Assembly (NCBI GenBank): GCA_947461015.1
Contig: CANHIR010000022.1
Coordinates: 1 to 16,336 of the forward strand
DNA: 16,336 bases
Direction of reading: 5' to 3'
Source: Bacteroidota bacterium
GTDB taxonomy: Bacteria > Bacteroidota > Bacteroidia > Chitinophagales > Chitinophagaceae
This document shows, one piece after another, positions 4,628 through 16,336 of this stretch. The notes beneath the pieces are model-generated. The model had not been told where the DNA came from and did no database searches. It worked only from the letters and a program-made list of their open reading frames with translations. Made by a program: the position numbers and the translations under genes. Within the stretch, counting starts at the first letter, position 1, and every line of letters starts with the position of its first letter.

Positions 4628-5260
4628 ATGGAAAACCGTATATTATTCAAAGCTAGGGACTTAATGACACGTAATGGGGTTAAACACATTACCATGGACG
4701 ATATTGCCTCCCAATTAGGCATTAGCAAAAAGACCATTTATCAATTTTATAAGGACAAAGATGCTTTGGTGATGGCCGTGGTAAATTTTGAATTGGAAGA
4801 GCAGGCCTTAAAATGTCAGCGGACTCAGGATATGGCCGACAATGCAGTACATGAAATGTTCATGATTTTGGAAGACATCCAACAAATGTTTAAAAACATG
4901 AACCCAATGACCATGAACGAACTGGCAAAATATTATCCAGAAGCATTCCTTCGTATACAAAATCACAAGGATGAATTTATGCATAAGATTATAAAAACGA
5001 ATCTTATCAAAGGAATTGAACAGGGTGTATATCGCAAAGAAATTGATCCAGAAATTTTATCTATCTATCGTTTAGAAACAAGCTTTGTTCCTTTCAATGC
5101 ACAGCTTTATCCTTATAGCAAATTTGACATCGCAAAAGTAACCTTGCAAATTATTGAAAATTTTATATACGGAGTAATGTCTATTAAAGGAATTGAATTC
5201 ATGGAAAAATATAAACACGAAACGGTTGCTAATGCACCTGTTGATTTACAAAATAATTAA
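4628..5260 (+). CDS. TetR/AcrR family transcriptional regulator
   Basis: A 210-residue one-component regulator, normal in length for TetR proteins. The N-terminal DNA-binding domain is clear: RILFKARDLMTRNGVKHITMDDIA followed by the recognition-helix region GISKKTIYQFYKDKDAL (31-47). The rest is an all-helical ligand-binding and dimerisation domain with no recognisable subfamily motif, so the inducer cannot be guessed. It is the first gene of an operon with the TolC-like channel (40 nt downstream), adaptor and RND pump, which makes it most likely the local repressor of that pump. A promoter and a 28-bp inverted repeat lie directly upstream, suggesting autoregulation. The start codon is supported by the promoter position and by the N-terminal alignment to the family. 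Confidence 0.93.
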   Translation: MENRILFKARDLMTRNGVKHITMDDIASQLGISKKTIYQFYKDKDALVMAVVNFELEEQALKCQRTQDMADNAVHEMFMILEDIQQMFKNMNPMTMNELAKYYPEAFLRIQNHKDEFMHKIIKTNLIKGIEQGVYRKEIDPEILSIYRLETSFVPFNAQLYPYSKFDIAKVTLQIIENFIYGVMSIKGIEFMEKYKHETVANAPVDLQNN

Positions 5261-5300
5261 AGTATTAAAATAAACATAAAATAAACAAGCAATAAATAGT

Positions 5301-6638
5301 ATGAAAAAACTAAGTTTCCTCATCGCGGTTTTTGCAATCACTGCCTTAGCTAAAGCGCAGGATGCAAATAAAATTACGCATGCATTTTCACTTGACCAGT
5401 GTGTGGAGTATGCACAAAAAAATAATGTACAAGTTAAAAATGCATTATTGGCAATTGATGTGCAAGCACAAACCAATAGAGAAATAGCAGGTACTGCATT
5501 ACCAACCATTAATACAAATGTGAGTGGTACCGACTATCTAAAAATTCCAACCTCTTTATTGCCAGGTCAAATTTTTGGTGGGGCCCCAGGAACTTTTATA
5601 CCTGTTCAGTTTGGTACAAAATTTAATGCAAACTATGGCGCTAGCATCCAACAATTATTATTTGACGGTCAAGTATTTATTGCTTTGCAAGCAAGAGCCA
5701 CTTCCATGGATTTGCAAAGAAAAAATGCTGCTTTAACACAGGAAGTTATTAAGGCTAATATTTATAAAATATATTATCAATTGTCTGCTAGCAAAACACA
5801 ATTAAATATTTTAGATGCAAACATTAACCGTGTAAAAGCCCTAGCACATGACGCTGAAATTATGTACAAGAATGGTTTTGCAGAAAAATTAGATGTTGAT
5901 AAAATAAGTGTTCAATTAAATAACCTTGAAACAGAAAAGTTAAAAGCAAACAATAGTGTTGCCATTGGCTATATGGGTTTAAAAATGTTAATGGGCATGC
6001 CAGTAAAAGATAGCTTGTCATTAACGGATGTGATTAATGAAGGTAGTTTAACAAATGATATTTTAACCGAATCCGACTTTCAATACAATGTGCGTAAAGA
6101 TTTTCAATACTTAAGTACGGTGAAAAAAATGAATGAGTTTAACGTAAAAAGATATCAATTAAGCAACTTGCCAACGGTTTCCATGTCTGGCTCTTATTCT
6201 AAAAATGCACAAAGAAGTAAATTTGATTTTTTCCAAGGAGGCAATTGGTTCTCTACTTCCTTAGTTAGTTTGAATATTAACCTTCCTATATTCAACGGTT
6301 TTGCGACCGATGCACGTATTAAGCGAACAAAAATAGAATTGAAACAAACCGAAAACCAAATTGAGTCATTAAAAAATAGTATTGATAACGAAATCAATCA
6401 AGCTAAATTAAACTACATGTCTTCTGTAGCAACGGTTCAATTTCAAAAGAAGAATATGGAATTAGCAGAGAAAGTGTATCAACAAACAAAAAAGAAGTTT
6501 GAAGCGGGTACAGGATCTAATACCGAAATATCTGCTGCACAAACTGATTTAGTAAGTGCACAAAACAATTTTATGAATGCACTTTATGCAGCATTAATTG
6601 CTAAAGTAGATTTATTAAAAGCAACTGGAAAATTATAA
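5301..6638 (+). CDS. TolC-family outer-membrane efflux protein
   Basis: A 445-residue outer-membrane channel of the OEP family, which as a trimer carries substrates from the periplasmic adaptor to the outside. A signal peptide is visible at residues 1-19 (MKKLSFLIAVFAITALAKA, cut before Gln20). The mature start FSLDQCVEYAQKNN (29-42) is the classic first OEP helix. Long helical stretches rich in Gln, Asn and Lys follow in two halves, roughly 30-240 and 250-445; the second ends in AALIAKVDLLKATGKL, typical of the family. No lipobox is present. It lies between the regulator (40 nt) and the adaptor (29 nt), so it is cotranscribed with its partners. Confidence 0.95.
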   Translation: MKKLSFLIAVFAITALAKAQDANKITHAFSLDQCVEYAQKNNVQVKNALLAIDVQAQTNREIAGTALPTINTNVSGTDYLKIPTSLLPGQIFGGAPGTFIPVQFGTKFNANYGASIQQLLFDGQVFIALQARATSMDLQRKNAALTQEVIKANIYKIYYQLSASKTQLNILDANINRVKALAHDAEIMYKNGFAEKLDVDKISVQLNNLETEKLKANNSVAIGYMGLKMLMGMPVKDSLSLTDVINEGSLTNDILTESDFQYNVRKDFQYLSTVKKMNEFNVKRYQLSNLPTVSMSGSYSKNAQRSKFDFFQGGNWFSTSLVSLNINLPIFNGFATDARIKRTKIELKQTENQIESLKNSIDNEINQAKLNYMSSVATVQFQKKNMELAEKVYQQTKKKFEAGTGSNTEISAAQTDLVSAQNNFMNALYAALIAKVDLLKATGKL

Positions 6639-6667
6639 GAAAAAATATAACAAATAAATACACGAAA

Positions 6668-7840
6668 ATGAAACATAGTTTAAAATTATTTACAATTAGT
6701 ATCATGTTAATTACAGTTGCTTGTGGCGGCGGTGATAATAGCATTGAGGCAAAAAAAGCAAATTTAGAAAAGTTAAAAAAGCAAGTTTTAGAGATAAATG
6801 GTAAAATTGCTAGTTTAGAAAAAGAACTGGCAACTAGTGGAGCCGCAGAACAAGCGAAAGCAGTTTTAGTGGTGGTTGCGCCAATTGTGAATCAGGACTT
6901 TAATCACTTTATTGAATTACAGGGTAAAGTAGAGTCTGAAAGTGTTTCTTATGTTACACCTCGCGCAGGTGGTGGCCAAGTAAAGGCTTTGTATGTTAAA
7001 AGAGGCGACCGTGTAAAAAAGGGACAACTCATTTTACAATTAGACAACAGTTTAATTAAGCAAAGTGCCGCAGCTGCTGCACAAAATATTGAAACCATTA
7101 AAGCGCAGGCTGCTTTAGCTAGATCGGTTTATGAAAAACAAAAAAATCTTTGGGAACAAAATATTGGTAGCGAAATACAATTAATGACGGCTAAAACAAA
7201 TGCCGATGCATCTGCAAGTCAATTAAAAGCAGCGACTGAACAATTGGGCATGGTTAAAGATCAGCTTTCTTATACAAGTGTTTATAGCGATGTAGATGGC
7301 GTTGCTGAAGAAGTGAATGTTAAAGTAGGAGAATTGTTTGGCGGTCCAGGTCAAATTAAAATTGTCAATACCGAGAAATTAAAATTAACTAGTATGGTAC
7401 CTGAAAACTATGCTGGTAAAATTAAGGTTGGAACAGAAGCTACTTTGATTTTCCCGGACATCAATAAAACAATTGATGCCAAATTAGGTGTGGTGGGAAC
7501 TGTGATTGATCCACTGAGCAGAAGTTTTTATGTTGAATCTAAATTACCTATAGATAAGGACTTTCGTCCAAATCAATTGGTTCAAGTTAAAATCAAGGAC
7601 TATACTAAGGCAAACGCAATCATTATTCCAATTAACCTAATTCAAAACGATGAAAAAGGGAAATTCATTTATGTGGCTGCAAAAGAAGGCGGTAAACTTA
7701 TTGCACGTAAAAGAGCAGTGACCATTGGTGAATTTTATGGAAACAATATTGAAATTCTTTCCGGTCTAACAGCAGGAGAACAAATGATTACGGAGGGATT
7801 TCAGTCCTTGTTTGATGGTCAAAATATCATTACAAAATAG
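6668..7840 (+). CDS. RND efflux periplasmic adaptor (HlyD/AcrA family), lipoprotein
   Basis: A 390-residue membrane-fusion protein that links the RND pump to the TolC-like channel. The N-terminus has a lipoprotein signal with LITVAC, placing the lipidated cysteine at residue 19, so it is probably anchored in the inner membrane. A charged coiled coil (about 27-56, KKANLEKLKKQVLEINGKIA) precedes the core. The first half of the lipoyl-like domain is GGGQVKALYVKRGDRVKKGQ (101-120); the alpha-hairpin runs about 131-200, and the second lipoyl half VDGVAEEVNVKVGE follows at 209-222. Beta-barrel and membrane-proximal domains make up the rest. It lies 29 nt after the channel gene and 40 nt before the pump gene. 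The extra coiled coil between the lipid anchor and the core is not part of the minimal AcrA layout. Confidence 0.95.
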   Translation: MKHSLKLFTISIMLITVACGGGDNSIEAKKANLEKLKKQVLEINGKIASLEKELATSGAAEQAKAVLVVVAPIVNQDFNHFIELQGKVESESVSYVTPRAGGGQVKALYVKRGDRVKKGQLILQLDNSLIKQSAAAAAQNIETIKAQAALARSVYEKQKNLWEQNIGSEIQLMTAKTNADASASQLKAATEQLGMVKDQLSYTSVYSDVDGVAEEVNVKVGELFGGPGQIKIVNTEKLKLTSMVPENYAGKIKVGTEATLIFPDINKTIDAKLGVVGTVIDPLSRSFYVESKLPIDKDFRPNQLVQVKIKDYTKANAIIIPINLIQNDEKGKFIYVAAKEGGKLIARKRAVTIGEFYGNNIEILSGLTAGEQMITEGFQSLFDGQNIITK

Positions 7841-7880
7841 TAGGACAGTTTAATAATTTATAAAAGCACAATCGATCTAT

Positions 7881-10800
7881 ATGTCGACAATTCAAAAAAT
7901 AAAAGAAAAATTTAAGGAGTTTGGTCCTACTTCTTGGAGTATCACTAATAAAACATCTATATACCTATTAATGTTGTTTATTAGTTTGGGTGGTATTTAC
8001 CAATTTTTAACCTTGCCAAAAGAACAGTTCCCAGAAGTTGTAATTCCAACCATGTTTGTTCAAACTGTTTATGTAGGTAACTCTCCCAAGGATATTGAGA
8101 ACTTAGTTACCCGTCCCCTTGAAAAACAAATTAAGAGTATTAGTGGTGTAAAAATTAACAAGTTTACTTCCTCCTCTCAACAAGACTTCTCGTTAATTAC
8201 GGTAGAATTTAGCACAGACGTGAAAACAGATGTGGCTTTACAAAAAGTGAAAGATGCGGTGGATAAAGCAAAAGGTGAACTACCCAACGATCTAACACAG
8301 GAGCCACGCGTAATGGAACTAAACATAAGTGACCAACCTATTATGTTTGTAAACATCAGTGGTAATTATAGCACAGTGCAACTTAAAAAGTATGCCGACG
8401 ATTTAAAAGAAAAATTAGAAGGCATTCCGCAAATTAACAGAATTGATTTAGCAGGTGCGCCTGAAAGAGAGTTTCAAATTAATGTGGACAATTATCGCAT
8501 GCAAACAGCAGGTATCACTTTTGATGATATCAGCGCTGCCATTCAAAGGGAAAATTTAGACTTGTCTGGCGGTTTGTTGGAGGTTGGCAATATGCAAAGA
8601 AACCTTCAATTAAAAGGTCAATTAAAAAATGCCAATGACATTGCAAATATTATTGTTCGAAATACAAGTGGCGCTCCTATTTATTTAAAAGATGTTGCAA
8701 AAATCATTGACACCATCAAAAACACGGAAAGCTATGCACGTTTAAATGGAAAAAATGTATTAACCTTAAATATTATTAAGCGTAATGGCGAAAACCTTAT
8801 TGCCACTTCCGATGCGGTTAAAAAAGCAGTAGAGGAAGCAAAGGCAACTGTTTTTCCAAAGGACTTGAATGTAGTGATATCGGGCGATCAAAGTATTCGA
8901 ACTAGAAGTTCTTTTACCGAATTGGTTAACTCCATTGTTATTGGATTTATTTTGGTATTGATTGTATTGATGTTTTTTATGGGTGTGACCAATGCTTTCT
9001 TTGTGGCCTTATCTGTGCCTTTAAGCATGTTTGTTGCATTTGTATTTTTACCAGCCGGAGATTGGGTAGTAGGGTCTCATATTACCTTAAACTTTATGGT
9101 ATTGTTTGCATTGCTATTTGGCTTGGGAATTATTGTGGATGATGCCATTGTAGTAATTGAAAATACGCATCGCATATTTGTACAAGGAAAAGGTAAATTA
9201 ACCGCCACCACTTCTGCTAAAATGGCTGCCGGTGAAGTATTTATACCAGTATTAGCAGGAACCATCACTACACTTGCCCCATTTTTCCCATTGTTATTTT
9301 GGCCTGGGATCATTGGTAAATTCATGGTATACTTACCTGCTATGTTAATTTTCACCTTAGCAGCTTCATTGGTCGTTGCTTTTATCATGAACCCTGTATT
9401 TGCAGTAGACTTCATGAATCATGAAGATGATCATAAAGCCGCTGAATCTAAATTTTCTATTTTCAAAAAGAAAATTTTCTGGGTTCCACTTATCGCAGGG
9501 ATATTACTTGACTTCGCAAAGTTTACATTCCTGGGAAACCTGTTGATCTTTTTAATGATTACCATGGTAGCCAATAAATTTTTTATAAATAAATTAATTG
9601 TAAAGTTCCAAACCTCCACTTTGCCAAGATTAATGAATTGGTATGAGCGTGCATTAAGAAGATCCTTAAGCGGATGGAGGCCCGTTAGATTATTGATAGG
9701 CACATTTGTATTACTCATTTTATCTTTTGTGATTTTAGGTATTAGTGTAAGCACAGGTCGAGTAGGTATTGAATTTTTCCCTAAAGGAGACCCTAACCAA
9801 GTGTTTGTATATTTAAAACTACCTGCTGGTTCTAATGTAAGATATACCGATTCTATTACTAAGGTATTAGAAGCAAAAGTGAATAAAGTATTGGGGAATG
9901 AAAATGGTCAAAATCCTTTAGTGGAAAGTATCATTAGTAACGTGGCTGTGGGCGCTGGTGACCCAATGAGAGGAGACAGAAGCAATAGAGCCGAACTAGG
10001 ACGTATACAAGTAAACTTTGTTGAATTTGAAAAACGTCATGGTAAATCAACTGCTCCCTATTTAGAAAGTTTAAGAAATGAATTAAAAGGAATGCCAGGT
10101 GCTGAAATTTCTGTAGACCAAGAATCAAGTGGTCCACCAACAGAACCTCCTGTGAACATTGAAATACAAGGTGAAGATTTTGATAAGTTGATCAAAACTG
10201 CTGTAGGTTTAAAAAATTATTTAGACGCTGCACAAATTCCTGGCATCAACACTTTAAAAATGGATGTGGATTTACAAAATCCTGAATTAACTTTAACCAT
10301 TGATAGAGAAAGAGCTTTAATTGAAGGCGTAAGCAGTGCACAGGTAGGCATGCAAATTAGAACTGCTTTATTTGGTAAAGAAGTTTCTAAAATTAAAGAG
10401 GGTAAAGATGAATATAAAATTCAATTAAGAAGCCAAGAGCTACAAAGAAACAATTTGGTTGATTTATTAAACATGCGCTTATCCTTCAGAGATATGGCTG
10501 CAGGTGGTATGGTTAAAAATATCCCTATTAGTAGTTTAGTAAAAGTAGAGCCAACCAATACTTTTGGTAGCATTAAAAGAAAGGATCAAAAAAGATTAAT
10601 TCAATTAAGCTCCAATGTACTTGTGGACAAAGGATACAGTCCTACTTCGGTAAACGCTGTCATTGCCCAGTATATTTCCAACTTTAAAGGTATTGCAGAA
10701 GGTGTAACCGTAAAACAAACTGGGGAAAATGAACAACAATTAGAAACAGTTGCCTTCTTGGGAAAAGCATTGATTATTGCTTTAATGTTAATCTTATTCA

Positions 10801-11474
10801 CCCTTGTATTGCAATTCAACTCTATTTCAAAATCGGTAATTATTTTAACGGAGATTTTATTTAGTATCATAGGTGTATTCTTGGGATTCTCTATTTTCGG
10901 AATGAAAATTTCAGGCGTAATGACTGGATTGGGTATAGTTGGATTGGCGGGTATTGTTGTTAAAAACGGTATCCTGGTAATTGAATTTGCAGACGAATTA
11001 AGGTCAAGAGGTATGAAAACAAAAGAAGCAGTAATTCAAGCAGGTAAAACCAGAATTATTCCAGTTATGTTAACTGCATTGGCTGCTATATTAGGTTTCA
11101 TCCCTATTGCCATTGGTTTCAATATTAATTTTGTGACTTTATTTAGTGAATTGAATCCACATATCTTCTTTGGTGGAGACAACGTTGCATTCTGGAAGCC
11201 ATTAAGTTGGACCTTAATATTTGGTTTGATATTTGCTTTCTTTATGACCTTGTTTATTGTACCAGGTATGTACTTGATAGCAGAACGTTTAAAGCGACCA
11301 ATGCGCCGTCATTTTGGTGGTAAGTGGATTAGCATGTTGGGTATTCCTCCATTGACCATTATATTTATTCCTTTGGTGTTTGTTACTATGTACATTCATA
11401 GAAGAAATGTAAAGCGCCGCAGGGCAAAGCAAAATGCTAACGGGGATCTTACTGTGAATGGATCCTGGTATTAA
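7881..11474 (+). CDS. RND-family efflux pump, AcrB/MMPL-like inner-membrane subunit
   Basis: A 1197-residue proton-driven exporter of the RND superfamily (AcrB/HAE-like), about 150 residues longer than AcrB. TM1 is at about 27-44. The proton-relay pair is in GLGIIVDDAIVVIENTH (D420, D421), and the partner lysine is in GIVVKNGILVIEFADE (K1028). The two periplasmic loops lie at about 45-345 and 625-955. Helices TM2-TM6 run from about 348 to 510 and TM8-TM12 from about 957 to 1135. Extra sequence occurs at 515-575, with two hydrophobic segments between TM6 and the helix before TM7, and at the C-terminus (about 1145-1172), with another hydrophobic stretch and a basic tail. All catalytic residues are present, so the pump should be active. 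Substrate is unknown; it could be drugs, lipids or other toxic compounds. It is the last gene of the operon, followed by a terminator. Confidence 0.96.
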   Translation: MSTIQKIKEKFKEFGPTSWSITNKTSIYLLMLFISLGGIYQFLTLPKEQFPEVVIPTMFVQTVYVGNSPKDIENLVTRPLEKQIKSISGVKINKFTSSSQQDFSLITVEFSTDVKTDVALQKVKDAVDKAKGELPNDLTQEPRVMELNISDQPIMFVNISGNYSTVQLKKYADDLKEKLEGIPQINRIDLAGAPEREFQINVDNYRMQTAGITFDDISAAIQRENLDLSGGLLEVGNMQRNLQLKGQLKNANDIANIIVRNTSGAPIYLKDVAKIIDTIKNTESYARLNGKNVLTLNIIKRNGENLIATSDAVKKAVEEAKATVFPKDLNVVISGDQSIRTRSSFTELVNSIVIGFILVLIVLMFFMGVTNAFFVALSVPLSMFVAFVFLPAGDWVVGSHITLNFMVLFALLFGLGIIVDDAIVVIENTHRIFVQGKGKLTATTSAKMAAGEVFIPVLAGTITTLAPFFPLLFWPGIIGKFMVYLPAMLIFTLAASLVVAFIMNPVFAVDFMNHEDDHKAAESKFSIFKKKIFWVPLIAGILLDFAKFTFLGNLLIFLMITMVANKFFINKLIVKFQTSTLPRLMNWYERALRRSLSGWRPVRLLIGTFVLLILSFVILGISVSTGRVGIEFFPKGDPNQVFVYLKLPAGSNVRYTDSITKVLEAKVNKVLGNENGQNPLVESIISNVAVGAGDPMRGDRSNRAELGRIQVNFVEFEKRHGKSTAPYLESLRNELKGMPGAEISVDQESSGPPTEPPVNIEIQGEDFDKLIKTAVGLKNYLDAAQIPGINTLKMDVDLQNPELTLTIDRERALIEGVSSAQVGMQIRTALFGKEVSKIKEGKDEYKIQLRSQELQRNNLVDLLNMRLSFRDMAAGGMVKNIPISSLVKVEPTNTFGSIKRKDQKRLIQLSSNVLVDKGYSPTSVNAVIAQYISNFKGIAEGVTVKQTGENEQQLETVAFLGKALIIALMLILFTLVLQFNSISKSVIILTEILFSIIGVFLGFSIFGMKISGVMTGLGIVGLAGIVVKNGILVIEFADELRSRGMKTKEAVIQAGKTRIIPVMLTALAAILGFIPIAIGFNINFVTLFSELNPHIFFGGDNVAFWKPLSWTLIFGLIFAFFMTLFIVPGMYLIAERLKRPMRRHFGGKWISMLGIPPLTIIFIPLVFVTMYIHRRNVKRRRAKQNANGDLTVNGSWY

Positions 11475-11525: not shown

Positions 11526-12524
11526 TTAATCGTAGATGGTTCTAAATAATTTGTTACGCCTATTCCCAATAGAGGTGGAAAAAGAAAGTTCAAAAGTATT
11601 TTGTCTTAACCGGGCTTGTGTAATATCTGTATTGTATATGTCATAACTAAAACCCAAAATATTTTTATTCATTAAAAGTCTTAATGATGGAATGATAGCA
11701 TCTCCTATTCTGTAATAACAGCCAACGTACATTCTTTTTTCCGCATCCTCATAAGTAGCAATAGGAAGCCCTATAGAACCACCTGTTAATATTTGGCTAT
11801 TGTTGGTTCTGTTTATATAAGATGCATGTACACTAGCGGTAAATTGATTGTAAAGCTTAGTTTCATAATTAACATACACGCTTGACTTATAACTTAATCT
11901 TGTATTTAAGGTCGTTGTCAATAAATCGGGCATAGATTGAAAATTTAAACTACCGCCCGTTTCCAAAAAAGCATCTTCGGTGTGTCTAGTAAAAGCCAAT
12001 CCAACATTCATAGAAAACCTAGATGCATTGTTTTTAAACATTTCTGCTGTAGCGCTCACTAAATTCGCACTGTAATCATACTGATCAGCAAATATCAATT
12101 TAGTTCTGTCCACAGTTGTATTGATATAAGAAGCACCTAATCCTAGCGCAATGTTATTTTTATAATCTTCGTCTACAAACATATGATATGCAACATTAAA
12201 TGTAACATGATTAGAATTAATTGCTCCATTCATAATTTGATCCGATAGCACATTTATGCCAAGTCCTAAATAATTATCTCCTTCATATACCGACTTTCCT
12301 GAACGCCAATCCCAACCTGCAAATATGGTTTGATAGGATTTATTGTTGTCAATAAATTGAGTTCTTACATTGCCGTTTATTCTTTGGTCATAGACGCCTC
12401 CCCCTACAGAAGCTGTATTTAAAAACTGAGCTGAACTATAAGGTTGAGACAAATATGGATCCTGCGCAAGTGATTGCACAATGCTTAGTAAAAAAAATAA
12501 GATATATAAAAACGATACTCTCAT
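11526..12524 (-). CDS. PorP/SprF family type IX secretion outer-membrane protein
   Basis: A 332-residue beta-barrel protein of the PorP/SprF family, named for components needed for export of particular T9SS cargoes and for gliding. A signal peptide spans residues 1-20 (ending IVQSLA), and the mature protein begins QDPYLSQPYSSAQFLNTASVG, the family's characteristic start (usually QDP.FSQ.......NPA..G). Alternating hydrophobic strands with aromatic ends follow through to the C-terminal ELSFSTSIGNRRNKLF. Length is typical. It starts 8 nt after the stop of the long type B cargo gene, so both are surely one transcript, and it ends at a bidirectional terminator. Such pairing is common for cargoes with the type B sorting domain, so this is probably the dedicated partner of the neighbour rather than the core PorP. 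No gene symbol is given for that reason. Confidence 0.92.
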   Translation of the reverse strand: MRVSFLYILFFLLSIVQSLAQDPYLSQPYSSAQFLNTASVGGGVYDQRINGNVRTQFIDNNKSYQTIFAGWDWRSGKSVYEGDNYLGLGINVLSDQIMNGAINSNHVTFNVAYHMFVDEDYKNNIALGLGASYINTTVDRTKLIFADQYDYSANLVSATAEMFKNNASRFSMNVGLAFTRHTEDAFLETGGSLNFQSMPDLLTTTLNTRLSYKSSVYVNYETKLYNQFTASVHASYINRTNNSQILTGGSIGLPIATYEDAEKRMYVGCYYRIGDAIIPSLRLLMNKNILGFSYDIYNTDITQARLRQNTFELSFSTSIGNRRNKLFRTIYD

Positions 12525-12532
12525 TAATAATT

Positions 12533-12805
12533 TTATTTTATTAAAACGGTTTGTCCGCTCGCTTTAAATGTTTCGCCTAATATGGTTTTATATTCTGCAA
12601 TCCAATAGTATGCATCCGATTCCTGCATCACTCCATTTTTTCTACCATCCCATCCCCACTTAAGATTATTGGTCTCAAATACCAAATATCCATATCTATT
12701 AAATATTTTAAAATAATTTAAAGCGGTCACTTCTGGTTTAGCAATAATTTTTAAATTATCATTTAATGCATCTGAATTTGGAGAAAAAGCAGTTGGGACA
12801 AAAAA
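12533..12805 (-). other. Type B T9SS C-terminal sorting domain (CHU_C/gliding-motility-associated)
   Basis: The last about 90 residues read FFVPTAFSPNSDALND, then FKIFNRYGYLVFET, WGWDGRKNGV, DAYYWIAEY and a final SGQTVLIK. This is the typical gliding-motility-associated C-terminal domain, used as the type B signal for export across the outer membrane by the type IX system. The match by eye is strong at every conserved block. Confidence 0.95.
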
Positions 12806-15800
12806 TAAGTCCGTTGCCAATATATTAATTTGATACTGCTCACTTTCTGCTGACAAACAATTATTGGCATCCATTACATGATAGGAAACATTAATAATAC
12901 CACTACCAATCCCCTTAAAATTAAAATTTTGTTGTCCCGATCCTATCACTTTAGTGGGATCAGATAAATTCCAGTAATATGTATAAGGTGGTGTTCCAGC
13001 TATTGGGTTTGCTTTTAAAACCAATTGCTCATCAATTTTAATAAAATGTAATGGAGCCGTTATATTTCCTATGAGCGGTAAGGGGTTAACAATAATTGTG
13101 GCTGTATTGGTTGAACTTTTACACTGTGTGTTTTTGTTTACAACATAAATACTATATGTTCCAGCGACACCACTATTTAAAGTAGCTGCATTGCTTGGCG
13201 TCATTGCATTTAATGGAACCGTCCAAAAATAATGATAATCACTAGCCAATCCGAAATTTACACTAGCTAATAAATTTGCTGTTGCACCTTCACAGATATT
13301 TGCATTGCGAATGGTAACAATGGGGTTTGGATTAACCACAATGGATACACTGTCTATATTTTTACAGCCATTTACAGCGGTTCCCGTAACAAAATATTTT
13401 TTTGAACTAGCTGGTGAAAATAATACACCATCTACAATTTTATCTGACCATACATAGGTAGTACCACCCGTTCCAGATAAGGTAATTTTATCCCCCTCAC
13501 ATGGTGTAGCATTGGATGTATTTGCTTTTATAATAGGCAATGCGGTAATCACAACGGTTTTAGTAGAAGTATTTTTACATCCATTTATATCCGTACCCGT
13601 TACGGTATAGGTTAGGGTGCGATTGGGATTAAATATGATCCCATTGACAACTCCATTGTCCCAACTGTATGTATTTGCTCCCGTTGCAGTAAGTGTAACA
13701 GGATCATTTGCACATATTATTCCATTGTTAGGATTGGTTGCAATAGTTAAAATAGGCAATGCATTTACCGTAATGGTTTTACTAAAAGTATTGGAGCATC
13801 CATTTATATCAGTCCCTGTAACGGTATAGGTATCCGTTAAGGTAGGATTAAACGAAATCCCATTGGTTATGCCTTTATTCCATGCATATGATATTGCTCC
13901 GCTCGCAGTGATGGATACATTTTGACCAGCACAAATAATACCATTTACTGGATTGGAAAGTGCAGACAATACAGGAAGCGCATTGACCAATATATTAATG
14001 CTATTGGTAGATTTTACATTTAAACAATTAGTTGAAGTATTGGCAGTTAAACTATATACGCCCGCTTCTGTAATGGTAATTTGTTGACTATTCCCACCCG
14101 GAGTAATGGGTAGTCCATTTTTATACCACTGATTTCCACTATTGGTACTACTGGATAATATAACCGAAGCCCCATTACAAAAAGTAGTTGGGCCAGCTGC
14201 GGTAATCGTTGGAGGCGGTGTAACTGTAATGACTACCTGGTCCTGACAACTAGTATAACCATTGCTTACTTTTACTGTATAGGTTGTGGTAGCAGTTGGT
14301 TTCACTTTAATAGTTTCCGTTGTTTCCCCTGTTGACCAAAGTATAGATTTTGTAATTACATATGGCGTGTAACTAAAATTATCATATTTGCTTACTGAAT
14401 ACGTACTAATTATAACAGATCCAGTTGGACTGCTCACTGCAGGTGGATTGGCAGTTTCATATAACAGTGTGTTATTTAACCAAAATCTTAGTGAATCGGG
14501 TGTATACCTTACTTTAATATGATACCAATTAGGATAGGAAACAGGATTGACGCCTGTGGCACTTGCAACTTTAGTGCCATTAAACCAAAAAGCCCATCCC
14601 ACATCGTCGGTACCACTTGCCCTGGAGTCAACAATGATAAGTGGATTGGCATTGTTCATATCTGCACTTTTGGACAACAACAATAACCCTTGATTGGAAA
14701 TATTGTCTCCTGCTTTTGCATCTATTTCATAGGTGCCATATCCGTAATCTTGTTTGAGGGTCCTTACAAGTGCAGGCCTATTAATAGTAAGTGCATTTCC
14801 ACTTATTCCATCATTTGTTAATGCTGTGGATCCTTGGCCATTATTTTCAAAAGCAGCCAACGTGCTAAAATTATTGATGACAGTTGATAAATTTTGTCCA
14901 ACAGAAAAACTTGTAGATGTTAATAAAACGCTATCACCGCTACATATTGTTGAATCATTATTTATAATATTTATACCAAGTAAATTTACAAAAGTACTAT
15001 CTATAGCAGTACAACCTTGTGCATTGGTGACGGTCACAAAATGTTTTCCAGTGATACTTGCAGTTGCTGTTTGTGTATTTGCTCCTGTGTTCCAAGTATA
15101 TGAAGTAAACCCTGCACCCGCATTTAAAATTGTATTTTTTTGACCACATGCCGTTGTGGTATCTTGTAATGGATTAAATCCACCTAAATTATTAATAGTA
15201 ACTACTACTTGATCTTGACAAGTAGTAATGCCATCGGTAATGGTCACCGTATACGTAGTTGTGGTACCAGGTGCTACGGTAATGGAATTGGTTGTATCTC
15301 CTGTTGACCATTTTATCTTAAATGGCTGTTCGTTGATATCAATAAATTGCACCCCGTCGGTGGTGGCTACCAATAATCTATTGTCTAATAGCTCCATTCT
15401 AAAAGTGGGATTGCTATAATATCCAGACGGATTAGCAGTTGTGTATTTTATGGTATCTACTTGTCTAAATTGACTTCCTCCATTGTAGCTATAAAATACC
15501 TGTCCCTTTGCTAAAAACATTATTTTTTTTGAAAACAATATATCTGAAGTATATGCTCCATTGGTCATACTAAAATTAAGTGGATGCACATTTGTAAAGC
15601 TGCTGCCCTGATTACTACTTTTGTATAATGGACTGTTGGTAGGCGAACTGGTTGTATACACATTGCCTAGGTTGTCCGCCCTTACGACAAAGCCATCATA
15701 TGCACTAGAAAGCGTGGTCCAGTTTAACCCATTATCTGTAGACTTGTAAAATCCGCTTGCATAAATATTTCCATAAATATCTTTTGTAACACTTGGTGGA

Positions 15801-16336
15801 TCTAGGCCGCCTATTTTTTGTGTCCAGTTATTTGAGTTGTTAGAATACCAAATTCCTCTGCTTGAACCTTTTACGGTTAAAACGGATCCAGTTGCAGTGG
15901 TAAATACAATATCCATGGGGCCACATCCAAAACCAAAGTCTTGAACATTGGTCCAGCTGGTACCATTATCCGATGAGCGATACATTCCATTATGATTAGT
16001 GGATGCATAAATACTATTGTTGGCATCTACGCCTAAGGCCATAAAATTATGATCACCTAAAGCAGGAAAACTTGAAAGCTGTACCCAGGTATTTCCCCTG
16101 TCTGTGCTCTTATAAATTTTATCGCTATTCCAAGAGGGAAGCGCGTATAAATTTCCATATAAATCTTTTTTAACATTGTAAATTTCTTTGCCCGTTAACC
16201 TACGTTGCCATTTATTATAAGATATTAAAATAGAATCTATGGAAAGTGTAATACTTGCTCCACTACAAATGGTAGTATCATTATTTAAAATATTTGCTTT
16301 TACCAAACTCACATAACTACTGTCCGAAGCAATACA
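12533..16336 (-). CDS. Giant repetitive surface protein with type B T9SS sorting domain, partial at right edge
   Basis: At least 1267 residues of a secreted, multidomain surface protein; the start lies beyond the right edge. The GTG at 16312 is not a start: the frame continues upstream and resembles an internal stretch (IIN/ILNNDTTICSG, with the preceding C.A.DS..V.L pattern). Residues below count from that GTG codon. Order: Ig-like half module (C16); propeller-like region with Asp-box motifs (about 41-330); second half of the Ig-like module (W335-C365); Ig-like module (C389-C434); half module (C457), concanavalin-like domain (about 478-650), second half (W659-C689); further Ig-like modules with cysteine pairs 712/763, 794/839, 867/912, 938/983 and 1007/1064; a PKD-like segment (about 1080-1165); and a CHU_C/type B sorting domain (1170-1259). 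It is probably exported by T9SS and adhesive or sugar-binding. No catalytic motif was seen. Confidence 0.93.
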   Translation of the reverse strand, partial: CIASDSSYVSLVKANILNNDTTICSGASITLSIDSILISYNKWQRRLTGKEIYNVKKDLYGNLYALPSWNSDKIYKSTDRGNTWVQLSSFPALGDHNFMALGVDANNSIYASTNHNGMYRSSDNGTSWTNVQDFGFGCGPMDIVFTTATGSVLTVKGSSRGIWYSNNSNNWTQKIGGLDPPSVTKDIYGNIYASGFYKSTDNGLNWTTLSSAYDGFVVRADNLGNVYTTSSPTNSPLYKSSNQGSSFTNVHPLNFSMTNGAYTSDILFSKKIMFLAKGQVFYSYNGGSQFRQVDTIKYTTANPSGYYSNPTFRMELLDNRLLVATTDGVQFIDINEQPFKIKWSTGDTTNSITVAPGTTTTYTVTITDGITTCQDQVVVTINNLGGFNPLQDTTTACGQKNTILNAGAGFTSYTWNTGANTQTATASITGKHFVTVTNAQGCTAIDSTFVNLLGINIINNDSTICSGDSVLLTSTSFSVGQNLSTVINNFSTLAAFENNGQGSTALTNDGISGNALTINRPALVRTLKQDYGYGTYEIDAKAGDNISNQGLLLLSKSADMNNANPLIIVDSRASGTDDVGWAFWFNGTKVASATGVNPVSYPNWYHIKVRYTPDSLRFWLNNTLLYETANPPAVSSPTGSVIISTYSVSKYDNFSYTPYVITKSILWSTGETTETIKVKPTATTTYTVKVSNGYTSCQDQVVITVTPPPTITAAGPTTFCNGASVILSSSTNSGNQWYKNGLPITPGGNSQQITITEAGVYSLTANTSTNCLNVKSTNSINILVNALPVLSALSNPVNGIICAGQNVSITASGAISYAWNKGITNGISFNPTLTDTYTVTGTDINGCSNTFSKTITVNALPILTIATNPNNGIICANDPVTLTATGANTYSWDNGVVNGIIFNPNRTLTYTVTGTDINGCKNTSTKTVVITALPIIKANTSNATPCEGDKITLSGTGGTTYVWSDKIVDGVLFSPASSKKYFVTGTAVNGCKNIDSVSIVVNPNPIVTIRNANICEGATANLLASVNFGLASDYHYFWTVPLNAMTPSNAATLNSGVAGTYSIYVVNKNTQCKSSTNTATIIVNPLPLIGNITAPLHFIKIDEQLVLKANPIAGTPPYTYYWNLSDPTKVIGSGQQNFNFKGIGSGIINVSYHVMDANNCLSAESEQYQINILATDLFFVPTAFSPNSDALNDNLKIIAKPEVTALNYFKIFNRYGYLVFETNNLKWGWDGRKNGVMQESDAYYWIAEYKTILGETFKASGQTVLIK
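13334..13984 (-). repeat. Three tandem Ig-like repeats of 73, 73 and 71 codons
   Basis: Three consecutive units (13766-13984, 13547-13765, 13334-13546) each begin with ALP[VI] and contain a cysteine, then G....Y.W about 17 residues later, ..GV/I.F.P, YTVTGTDINGC or a close variant, and a short link to the next unit. Cysteine spacing is exactly 45 in all three. DNA similarity is visible: the stretch around 13800-13832 recurs at 13581-13613 with a 219-nt offset, and a weaker version recurs 213 nt further on. This indicates duplication, with the first two units the more recent pair. Confidence 0.9.
14363..14881 (-). other. Concanavalin/LamG-like domain inserted in an Ig-like module
   Basis: About 170 residues (478-650 from the GTG codon) with a beta-sandwich look. 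A strand-like start INNFSTLAAF is followed by a glycine-rich loop, GTYEIDAKAG, GLLLLSK, WAFWFNGTKV, NWYHIKVRYTPDSLRFWLNN, GSVIISTYS and KYDNFSYTP. This pattern fits concanavalin-like lectin/LamG domains that bind glycans, or DUF-type relatives. I see no glycosidase EXDXXE motif, so a binding role is more likely than catalysis. The fold assignment is by eye. Confidence 0.7.
15323..16192 (-). other. Beta-propeller-like region with Asp-box (BNR/sortilin-type) repeats
   Basis: About 290 residues (41-330 from the GTG codon) hold Asp-box motifs of the form S.D.G..W: STDRGNTW (69), SSDNGTSW (113) and STDNGLNW (191). Degenerate versions are SNNSNNW (157), SSNQGSSF (232) and YNGGSQF (276). Spacing is 34-44 residues, so there are about six or seven blades. 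Most blades also contain a .GN.Y or .NS.YAS strand. Sortilin, sialidase and BNR propellers share this signature; I see no sialidase arginine triad, so a non-catalytic binding or scaffold role is more likely. Confidence 0.8.

Follow-up and report, generated by a model that had tools for sequence, protein, structure and literature searches.

The window analysed here is the whole of contig CANHIR010000022.1 (16,336 nucleotides), from a Chitinophagaceae genome rated 71% complete, and its minus strand carries, at 12533-16336, a reading frame of 1267 amino acids. The frame encodes a string of immunoglobulin (Ig)-like modules ending in a CHU_C domain, i.e. the type B sorting domain of the type IX secretion system (T9SS). 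Two of the modules are interrupted at the same point by two different large domains, and an earlier note on this DNA had read them as a split Ig scaffold used as a socket for unrelated domains. That proposal is supported by a census of inserts in related proteins, by empty and occupied sockets at matching positions, by near-identical flanks, by a tree of the scaffold and by covariation of cysteines. We consider it very likely that the protein is a string of Ig modules with dedicated sockets, in which the scaffold is kept, the inserts are exchanged and neighbouring modules are joined by disulfides.

Split Ig-like modules in the window protein

The window being the whole contig, the frame runs off it on the 5' side; a 98% identical relative of 1567 amino acids (P0001) supplies the missing start and further modules upstream. 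Residues are counted from the GTG codon at 16312, and checked against the translation from this codon, all cysteine and tryptophan positions listed in the earlier note proved correct. The first cysteine precedes the core tryptophan by 17-18 residues in five of the six uninterrupted modules described there (389/407, 712/729, 794/811, 867/884 and 938/955) and by 23 in the sixth (1007/1030), while a seventh (W1114, C1152) has no first cysteine. The spacing from tryptophan to second cysteine is 27-34 residues in the six modules of the earlier note. In the interrupted ones, C16-W335-C365 and C457-W659-C689, this distance is 30 in both, and the one from first cysteine to tryptophan is 319 and 202, respectively. 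The consensus strings that had been described for the ends of both are present, and their N-side ends form a 36-nucleotide DNA repeat with 83% identity (14937-14972 and 16260-16295).

The gap fillings named from the letters alone, an Asp-box propeller and a concanavalin A (ConA)-like domain, are borne out by AlphaFold models, in which a complete propeller fills the first gap and a ConA-like fold the second. In the socket 1 model, two strands precede the whole propeller and three follow from its end onward. The chain would thus exit the Ig-like module after strand B, build a complete and independent domain, and return to finish the module from strand C. Both sorting-domain models score above their curated cut-offs (Table 1), which places the window protein among the surface proteins secreted as T9SS type B cargo. 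The Pfam model Ig_7 (PF19081) scores 35.4 bits over the whole protein (cut-off 27.3), and its best stretch is an uninterrupted module.

Table 1. Parts of the window protein and its downstream neighbour.
Feature	Coordinates	Strand	Details
Socket 1, N-side half, strands A and B, C16 (ANILNNDTTICSGASITLSIDS)	16232..16297	-	predicted strands 2-9 and 21-32
Insert 1, whole Asp-box-type beta-propeller	15320..16231	-	seven blades inferred from best matches
Socket 1, C-side half, W335 to C365 and last strand	15188..15319	-	predicted strands 320-337, 351-359 and 364-375
Uninterrupted spacer Ig module between sockets 1 and 2 (C389, W407, C434)	14975..15169	-	
Socket 2, N-side half with C457 (INIINNDSTICSGDSVLLTSTS)	14909..14974	-	
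Insert 2, ConA-like jelly-roll domain	14348..14908	-	
Socket 2, C-side half, W659 to C689 and last strand	14216..14347	-	
Six more uninterrupted Ig modules (W729, W811, W884, W955, W1030, W1114)	12833..14215	-	Pfam Ig_7
C-terminal T9SS type B sorting domain (CHU_C)	12536..12799	-	PF13585 50.5 bits (cut-off 27); TIGR04131 43.9 bits (cut-off 35)
Downstream PorP/SprF-like gene	11526..12524	-	TIGR03519 87.4 bits, E 1e-24, just below cut-off 90.55

The product of the PorP/SprF-like gene is a possible outer-membrane partner of this cargo. Further away, at 4628-11474 on the plus strand, lie genes read from their translations alone as an operon of a regulator, a TolC-like protein, a membrane-fusion protein and an RND pump.

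Census and exchange of inserts

Relatives were taken as the listed best 318 from three protein searches (402, 92 and 1072 matches), which gives 319 proteins with the window protein. Motif matches in the first 202 relatives served to build one profile for the N-side half and one for the C-side half, and with these 215 gaps (at least 120 residues from cysteine to tryptophan) were detected in 110 of the 319 proteins; the N side was found by motif rather than by profile in 69 of the gaps. Six clusters (2, 10, 11, 15, 16 and 17; 20 gaps) were dropped by eye, as they looked like adjacent intact modules of which one half had been missed, leaving 195 occupied sockets in 97 proteins. The two ends therefore do occur together in homologues. 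BLAST clustering divided the inserts into 13 groups, named by Pfam where possible; this is a count of sequence clusters and not of folds, since some groups have a common fold. LamG domains fill 89 sockets, the ConA-like domain of the window 55, C-type lectins 14 and Asp-box propellers 11. The remaining groups are two unnamed ones (7 and 5), a kelch-like propeller (5, weak Pfam match), a P-domain-like group (3), another unnamed group (2), and four single cases: Lcl_C (below cut-off), Fib_succ_major, a DUF5122 propeller and an SBBP-like insert. P-domain-like and SBBP-like are descriptive labels without a Pfam match.

The sockets have a regular geometry. The tryptophan of the preceding module lies 50 residues before the socket cysteine in 172 of the 215 gaps, and the tryptophan after the insert is followed by the next cysteine at 30 residues in 175 of the 195 kept sockets. 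Among the first 202 relatives and the window protein, 80 of 95 interrupted modules have a spacing of exactly 30, versus 24 of 625 uninterrupted ones, 178 of which have no cysteine in the searched range. Because this spacing is regular in sockets and rare in intact modules, the socket is a dedicated module subtype, which would make up every second module of the socket region. Inserts in other loops of the module were not found in a scan for fragmented C-side matches, which is an insensitive one. Among the orphan halves, N is followed by C 132 times, whereas 500 shuffles of their order gave 105 on average and 122 at most; the test is a weak one, as the N-side profile misses many modules.

Judged from the domain types, the inserts are probably glycan-binding. 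That a socket holds an enzymatic insert is possible and counts against this view of the system, but we regard it as unlikely that the socketed domains are in general enzymes or catalytic modules instead of adhesive lectins. The enzyme-family scores in the window are below curated cut-offs, and LamG and C-type lectin domains, among the commonest inserts, are familiar chiefly as binding domains.

The scaffold is also found without an insert. A search for sockets of this subtype without a filling turned up 22 candidates, spread over 17 proteins. Inspected by eye, 14 of the candidates were convincing, with 18-23 residues from cysteine to tryptophan. At a matching position with the same flanks, the socket is empty in P0126, holds a C-type lectin in P0045 and P0064, and holds LamG in P0056, P0060, P0135 and P0138. 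Unrelated inserts, or none, thus sit between scaffold flanks that are at least 80% identical on either side: pairs of sockets from different proteins with different fillings number 153 when both flanks are at least 70% identical, and 17 at 80% or more. Among the 45 pairs of LamG sockets with flanks of at least 80% identity, the LamG inserts themselves are just 39-47% identical in 7.

These pairs bear on the alternative that inserts were inherited once and never exchanged, each socket lineage keeping its own, and so does a tree of the scaffold computed without the insert columns. The tree retained 117 of 204 labelled rows after removal of short and near-identical ones, with the P-domain-like and SBBP-like sockets unlabelled. 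It requires at least 38 changes of filling, compared to a minimum possible of 11 and a mean of 58.4 in shuffles. The labels hence cluster beyond the shuffles, as single inheritance would have it, but the changes far exceed the minimum and some starred branches unite different inserts. The starred branches alone force at least 8 changes for LamG and at least 5 for empty sockets, and an earlier tree of 82 rows gave 29 changes versus a minimum of 10. Together with the 153 pairs, this makes inheritance without exchange very improbable, and exchange of inserts in a kept scaffold is the reading we retain. As both trees were computed quickly from few columns and leave many forks unresolved, the way in which inserts are exchanged, presumably recombination, is indicated rather than traced.

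In a related family, P0005-P0039, a ConA-like and a propeller socket adjoin without a spacer, in the opposite order to the window; identity is about 50% in the propeller module, and many members list MBG (PF18676) and CHU_C. LamG and another of the socket domains also occur in-line at N-termini, LamG in P0003 and, in P0001, a domain that resembles a socket insert at 28-33% identity.

To describe the spread of sockets, 80 loci in titled genome records were taken, the best 80 of 484 matches. They contain 19 gaps, of which 7, in 6 loci, were judged real inserts. The loci with real sockets include a Sphingobacteriales metagenome-assembled genome (MAG), an Odoribacter species (Bacteroidales) and a Salibacteraceae MAG, and a propeller-like insert lies in a genome of the window's own genus (L010). 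A two-module tag (A5) matches 101 of 395 genomes of the phylum, which is not the prevalence of sockets, because just two of the 36 loci inspected, the window's own and L010, had a convincing one. A closer tag (A6) matches 88 of 195 genomes of the family. In 12 stretches from the family and earlier genomes, a complete socket was seen in L153 only, the same gene as L010. Two contigs of genome G541 (C3 with L147 and C10 with L148) end inside a socket: one breaks off soon after an N-side half, and the other starts with an insert tail and a C-side half belonging to a protein with a long Ig array; the two are possibly one gene broken by assembly. In the window's genome, three long open frames on contigs C7 and C25 of G000 (2036, 1377 and 1322 amino acids) match the C-terminal part of the window protein, and the short loci around them held no convincing socket. 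A few matches are labelled as lying outside Bacteroidota, namely in Thermoanaerobaculia (P0218, P0229, L069), Patescibacteria (P0280) and Phycisphaerae (P0314), and are possibly mislabelled MAG contigs.

Cysteine covariation and probable closure of the scaffold

If the two cysteines of a module were bonded to each other, their losses should coincide. In 285 proteins with 3559 pairs of adjacent modules, the phi coefficient between the two cysteines of one module is 0.05. When the first cysteine of a module (i) is compared with the second of the next (i+1), it is 0.80 (bootstrap by protein 0.70-0.88), or 0.81 over 3546 pairs once the 20 artefact gaps are removed, and the control from i to i+2 gives -0.08. 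In only 2 of the 3559 pairs is the first cysteine kept and the second absent. Thinned to below 50% identity, 550 pairs remain (504/2/29/15, p 3.5e-16), with a within-module phi of 0.01. An intra-module disulfide as the main pattern is accordingly rejected, and the two cysteines that the earlier note listed for each module are probably not partners of each other but tied to neighbouring modules. In an Ig fold the first cysteine would sit in the turn between strands A and B, and the second, just ahead of the last strand, at the other pole of the module, which fits pairing between modules: the cysteine before strand B of one module would bond to that before the last strand of the next. Neighbours so joined would therefore form a string stapled beside the insertion point.

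The sockets follow the same pattern. The cysteine of the preceding module and the one after the insert are both present in 179 cases and both absent in 6, with none in between (179/0/0/6, Fisher 2e-11), and within sockets the two cysteines show no association (146/6/33/0, p 0.59). In 18 of the 35 proteins of the P0005 family, all those readable by a narrow pattern, leucine replaces the first cysteine of the ConA-like socket, and the following propeller socket is without the second cysteine in all 26 readable of the 35. The pattern also holds for five sockets at four genome loci (L037, L057 twice, L058 and L106; L049 was left out of the scoring), which may overlap with the 319 proteins. Since the cysteine after the insert tracks that of the module before it, the chain would have to return to the same junction, and this supports, as the best evidence at hand, that the scaffold closes across the insert. 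For the window protein, the predicted pairs are C16-C434, C389-C689, C457-C763, C712-C839, C794-C912, C867-C983, C938-C1064 and C1007-C1152, and the partner of C365 is predicted to be a cysteine upstream of the contig end.

Closure is the point at which a different arrangement has to be weighed, in which the two ends are parts of different units and the inserts are in-line beads. One unit would be a short linker following the previous Ig, the other a small C-terminal Ig-like domain needing no A and B strands. This arrangement draws on the in-line N-terminal domains of P0001 and P0003 and on the low confidence of the Ig parts of the fold models. However, the same scaffold exists uninterrupted in the 14 convincing empty sockets, flanks at least 80% identical occur with and without an insert, and the cysteine after the insert tracks the one before it in 185 of 185 pairs. 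We judge separate units to be improbable, and continue with a single Ig-like module split by its insert.

Several observations nevertheless weigh against the split, disulfide-stapled scaffold. Predicted local distance difference test (pLDDT) values are about 50-62 in the Ig parts of the socket 1 model, and in the socket 2 model below 50 on the N side and about 59-75 on the C side. The alignments behind both models are shallow (18 and 24 rows), and among the matches listed none was confined to the Ig parts, a comparison of little weight because one domain filled each list. The models hence give the propeller and the ConA-like domain whole in their gaps, as anticipated in the earlier note, and leave the closed Ig sandwich also anticipated there unproven, at too low a confidence. 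As to the cysteines, the second is kept with the first absent in 107 of the 3559 pairs, and the reverse pair, second of i versus first of i+1, has a phi of 0.42 (0.24 after thinning). The 6 double-loss sockets represent about three lineages, and the cysteine before the insert versus the second of the next module is uninformative (113/1/0/0). The idea of inter-module pairing arose from the P0005 family, which is part of the tested data, so the large test is not fully independent. Finally, the chain ends behave less simply than the scheme predicts: the second cysteine is still there in 37 of 45 modules close to a protein start, as is the first in 65 of 74 last modules.

The predictions that first modules would be without the second cysteine and last modules without the first are consequently not general. 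By eye, some of the exceptions at the start are leaderless fragments, and in others the leader is followed by an additional cysteine; L086, L088 and L094 are neither, yet keep the second cysteine.

Proposed display mechanism and comparison with known systems

Taken together, we propose the following arrangement. An insert lying inside the Ig-like module, between strands B and C, would therefore project sideways with both ends on the socket; by analogy, a loop insert whose two ends are close together stands out from the chain with its far face free, putatively for ligand binding. The spine would carry the insert away from the cell. With the scaffold conserved and the insert exchanged, surface proteins with different domain combinations would arise, the socket serving as a natural site for domain exchange. 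That this amounts to a general display system of Bacteroidota, in which a dedicated socket Ig of T9SS surface proteins, opened between B and C on a nearly constant, disulfide-stapled spine, has a dozen or more domains plugged and unplugged at one site, seems to us somewhat better than an even proposition.

Binding domains and their boundaries in these giant proteins are easily missed, because split modules are hard for family models. A simple rule, i.e. find the two halves and read the gap, would point to putative binding domains in T9SS surface proteins, also where their family has no Pfam name.

A large domain in a loop of an Ig-like domain is found in the hybrid domain of integrin beta, into which the betaI domain is inserted. 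This is a single fixed insert in an animal receptor, unlike the many-filling socket.

The closest likeness is to RTX adhesins, in which split Ig-like domains project ligand-binding domains, and insertion into a loop has been explained as sideways projection (PMC12077191, PMC10865825). In the passages available to us, AhLap of Aeromonas hydrophila and FrhA of Vibrio cholerae have, like the window protein, a sequence-discontinuous Ig-like module in a long array, from which a ligand-binding domain buds out off axis with both ends on the module, and several domains are carried so. The window protein shares with them a complete domain between the halves of such a module. According to the same passages, in the crystal structure of two AhLap domains the chain exits after the first strand, as compared to the second in the window protein. 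RTX adhesins use type I secretion, whereas the window protein has a T9SS sorting domain; no RTX model is among its six Pfam matches, and no RTX adhesin among the 15 PDB sequences matched by the scaffold profile. The window protein may act like the RTX split domains but is not a member of their family, which suggests that split-domain display is not confined to type I secretion.

A profile of the spacer plus socket start matches a single PDB sequence at E <1e-5, that of the Aureispira grappling hook protein GhpA (E 2e-38; PDB 9flp and related), in which Ig modules of this kind likewise form a long array. Compared by sequence alone, its matched modules follow at a spacing of about 80 residues through most of the matched region, with no socket identified. 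As a solved relative of these modules, GhpA offers existing structures (PDB 9flp) in which the predicted disulfide-linked Ig spine can be checked.

The earlier note knew of no description of this layout, and that holds in part. No split Ig domain of T9SS proteins or Bacteroidota was found in the literature searched, which covered few subscription papers, and a review of adhesive appendages contained none of the looked-for terms. The display principle itself is published for the RTX adhesins. What appears new is its T9SS version, with empty sockets, inserts exchanged at one site and predicted cysteine pairing between modules, features absent from the RTX adhesin passages we compared.

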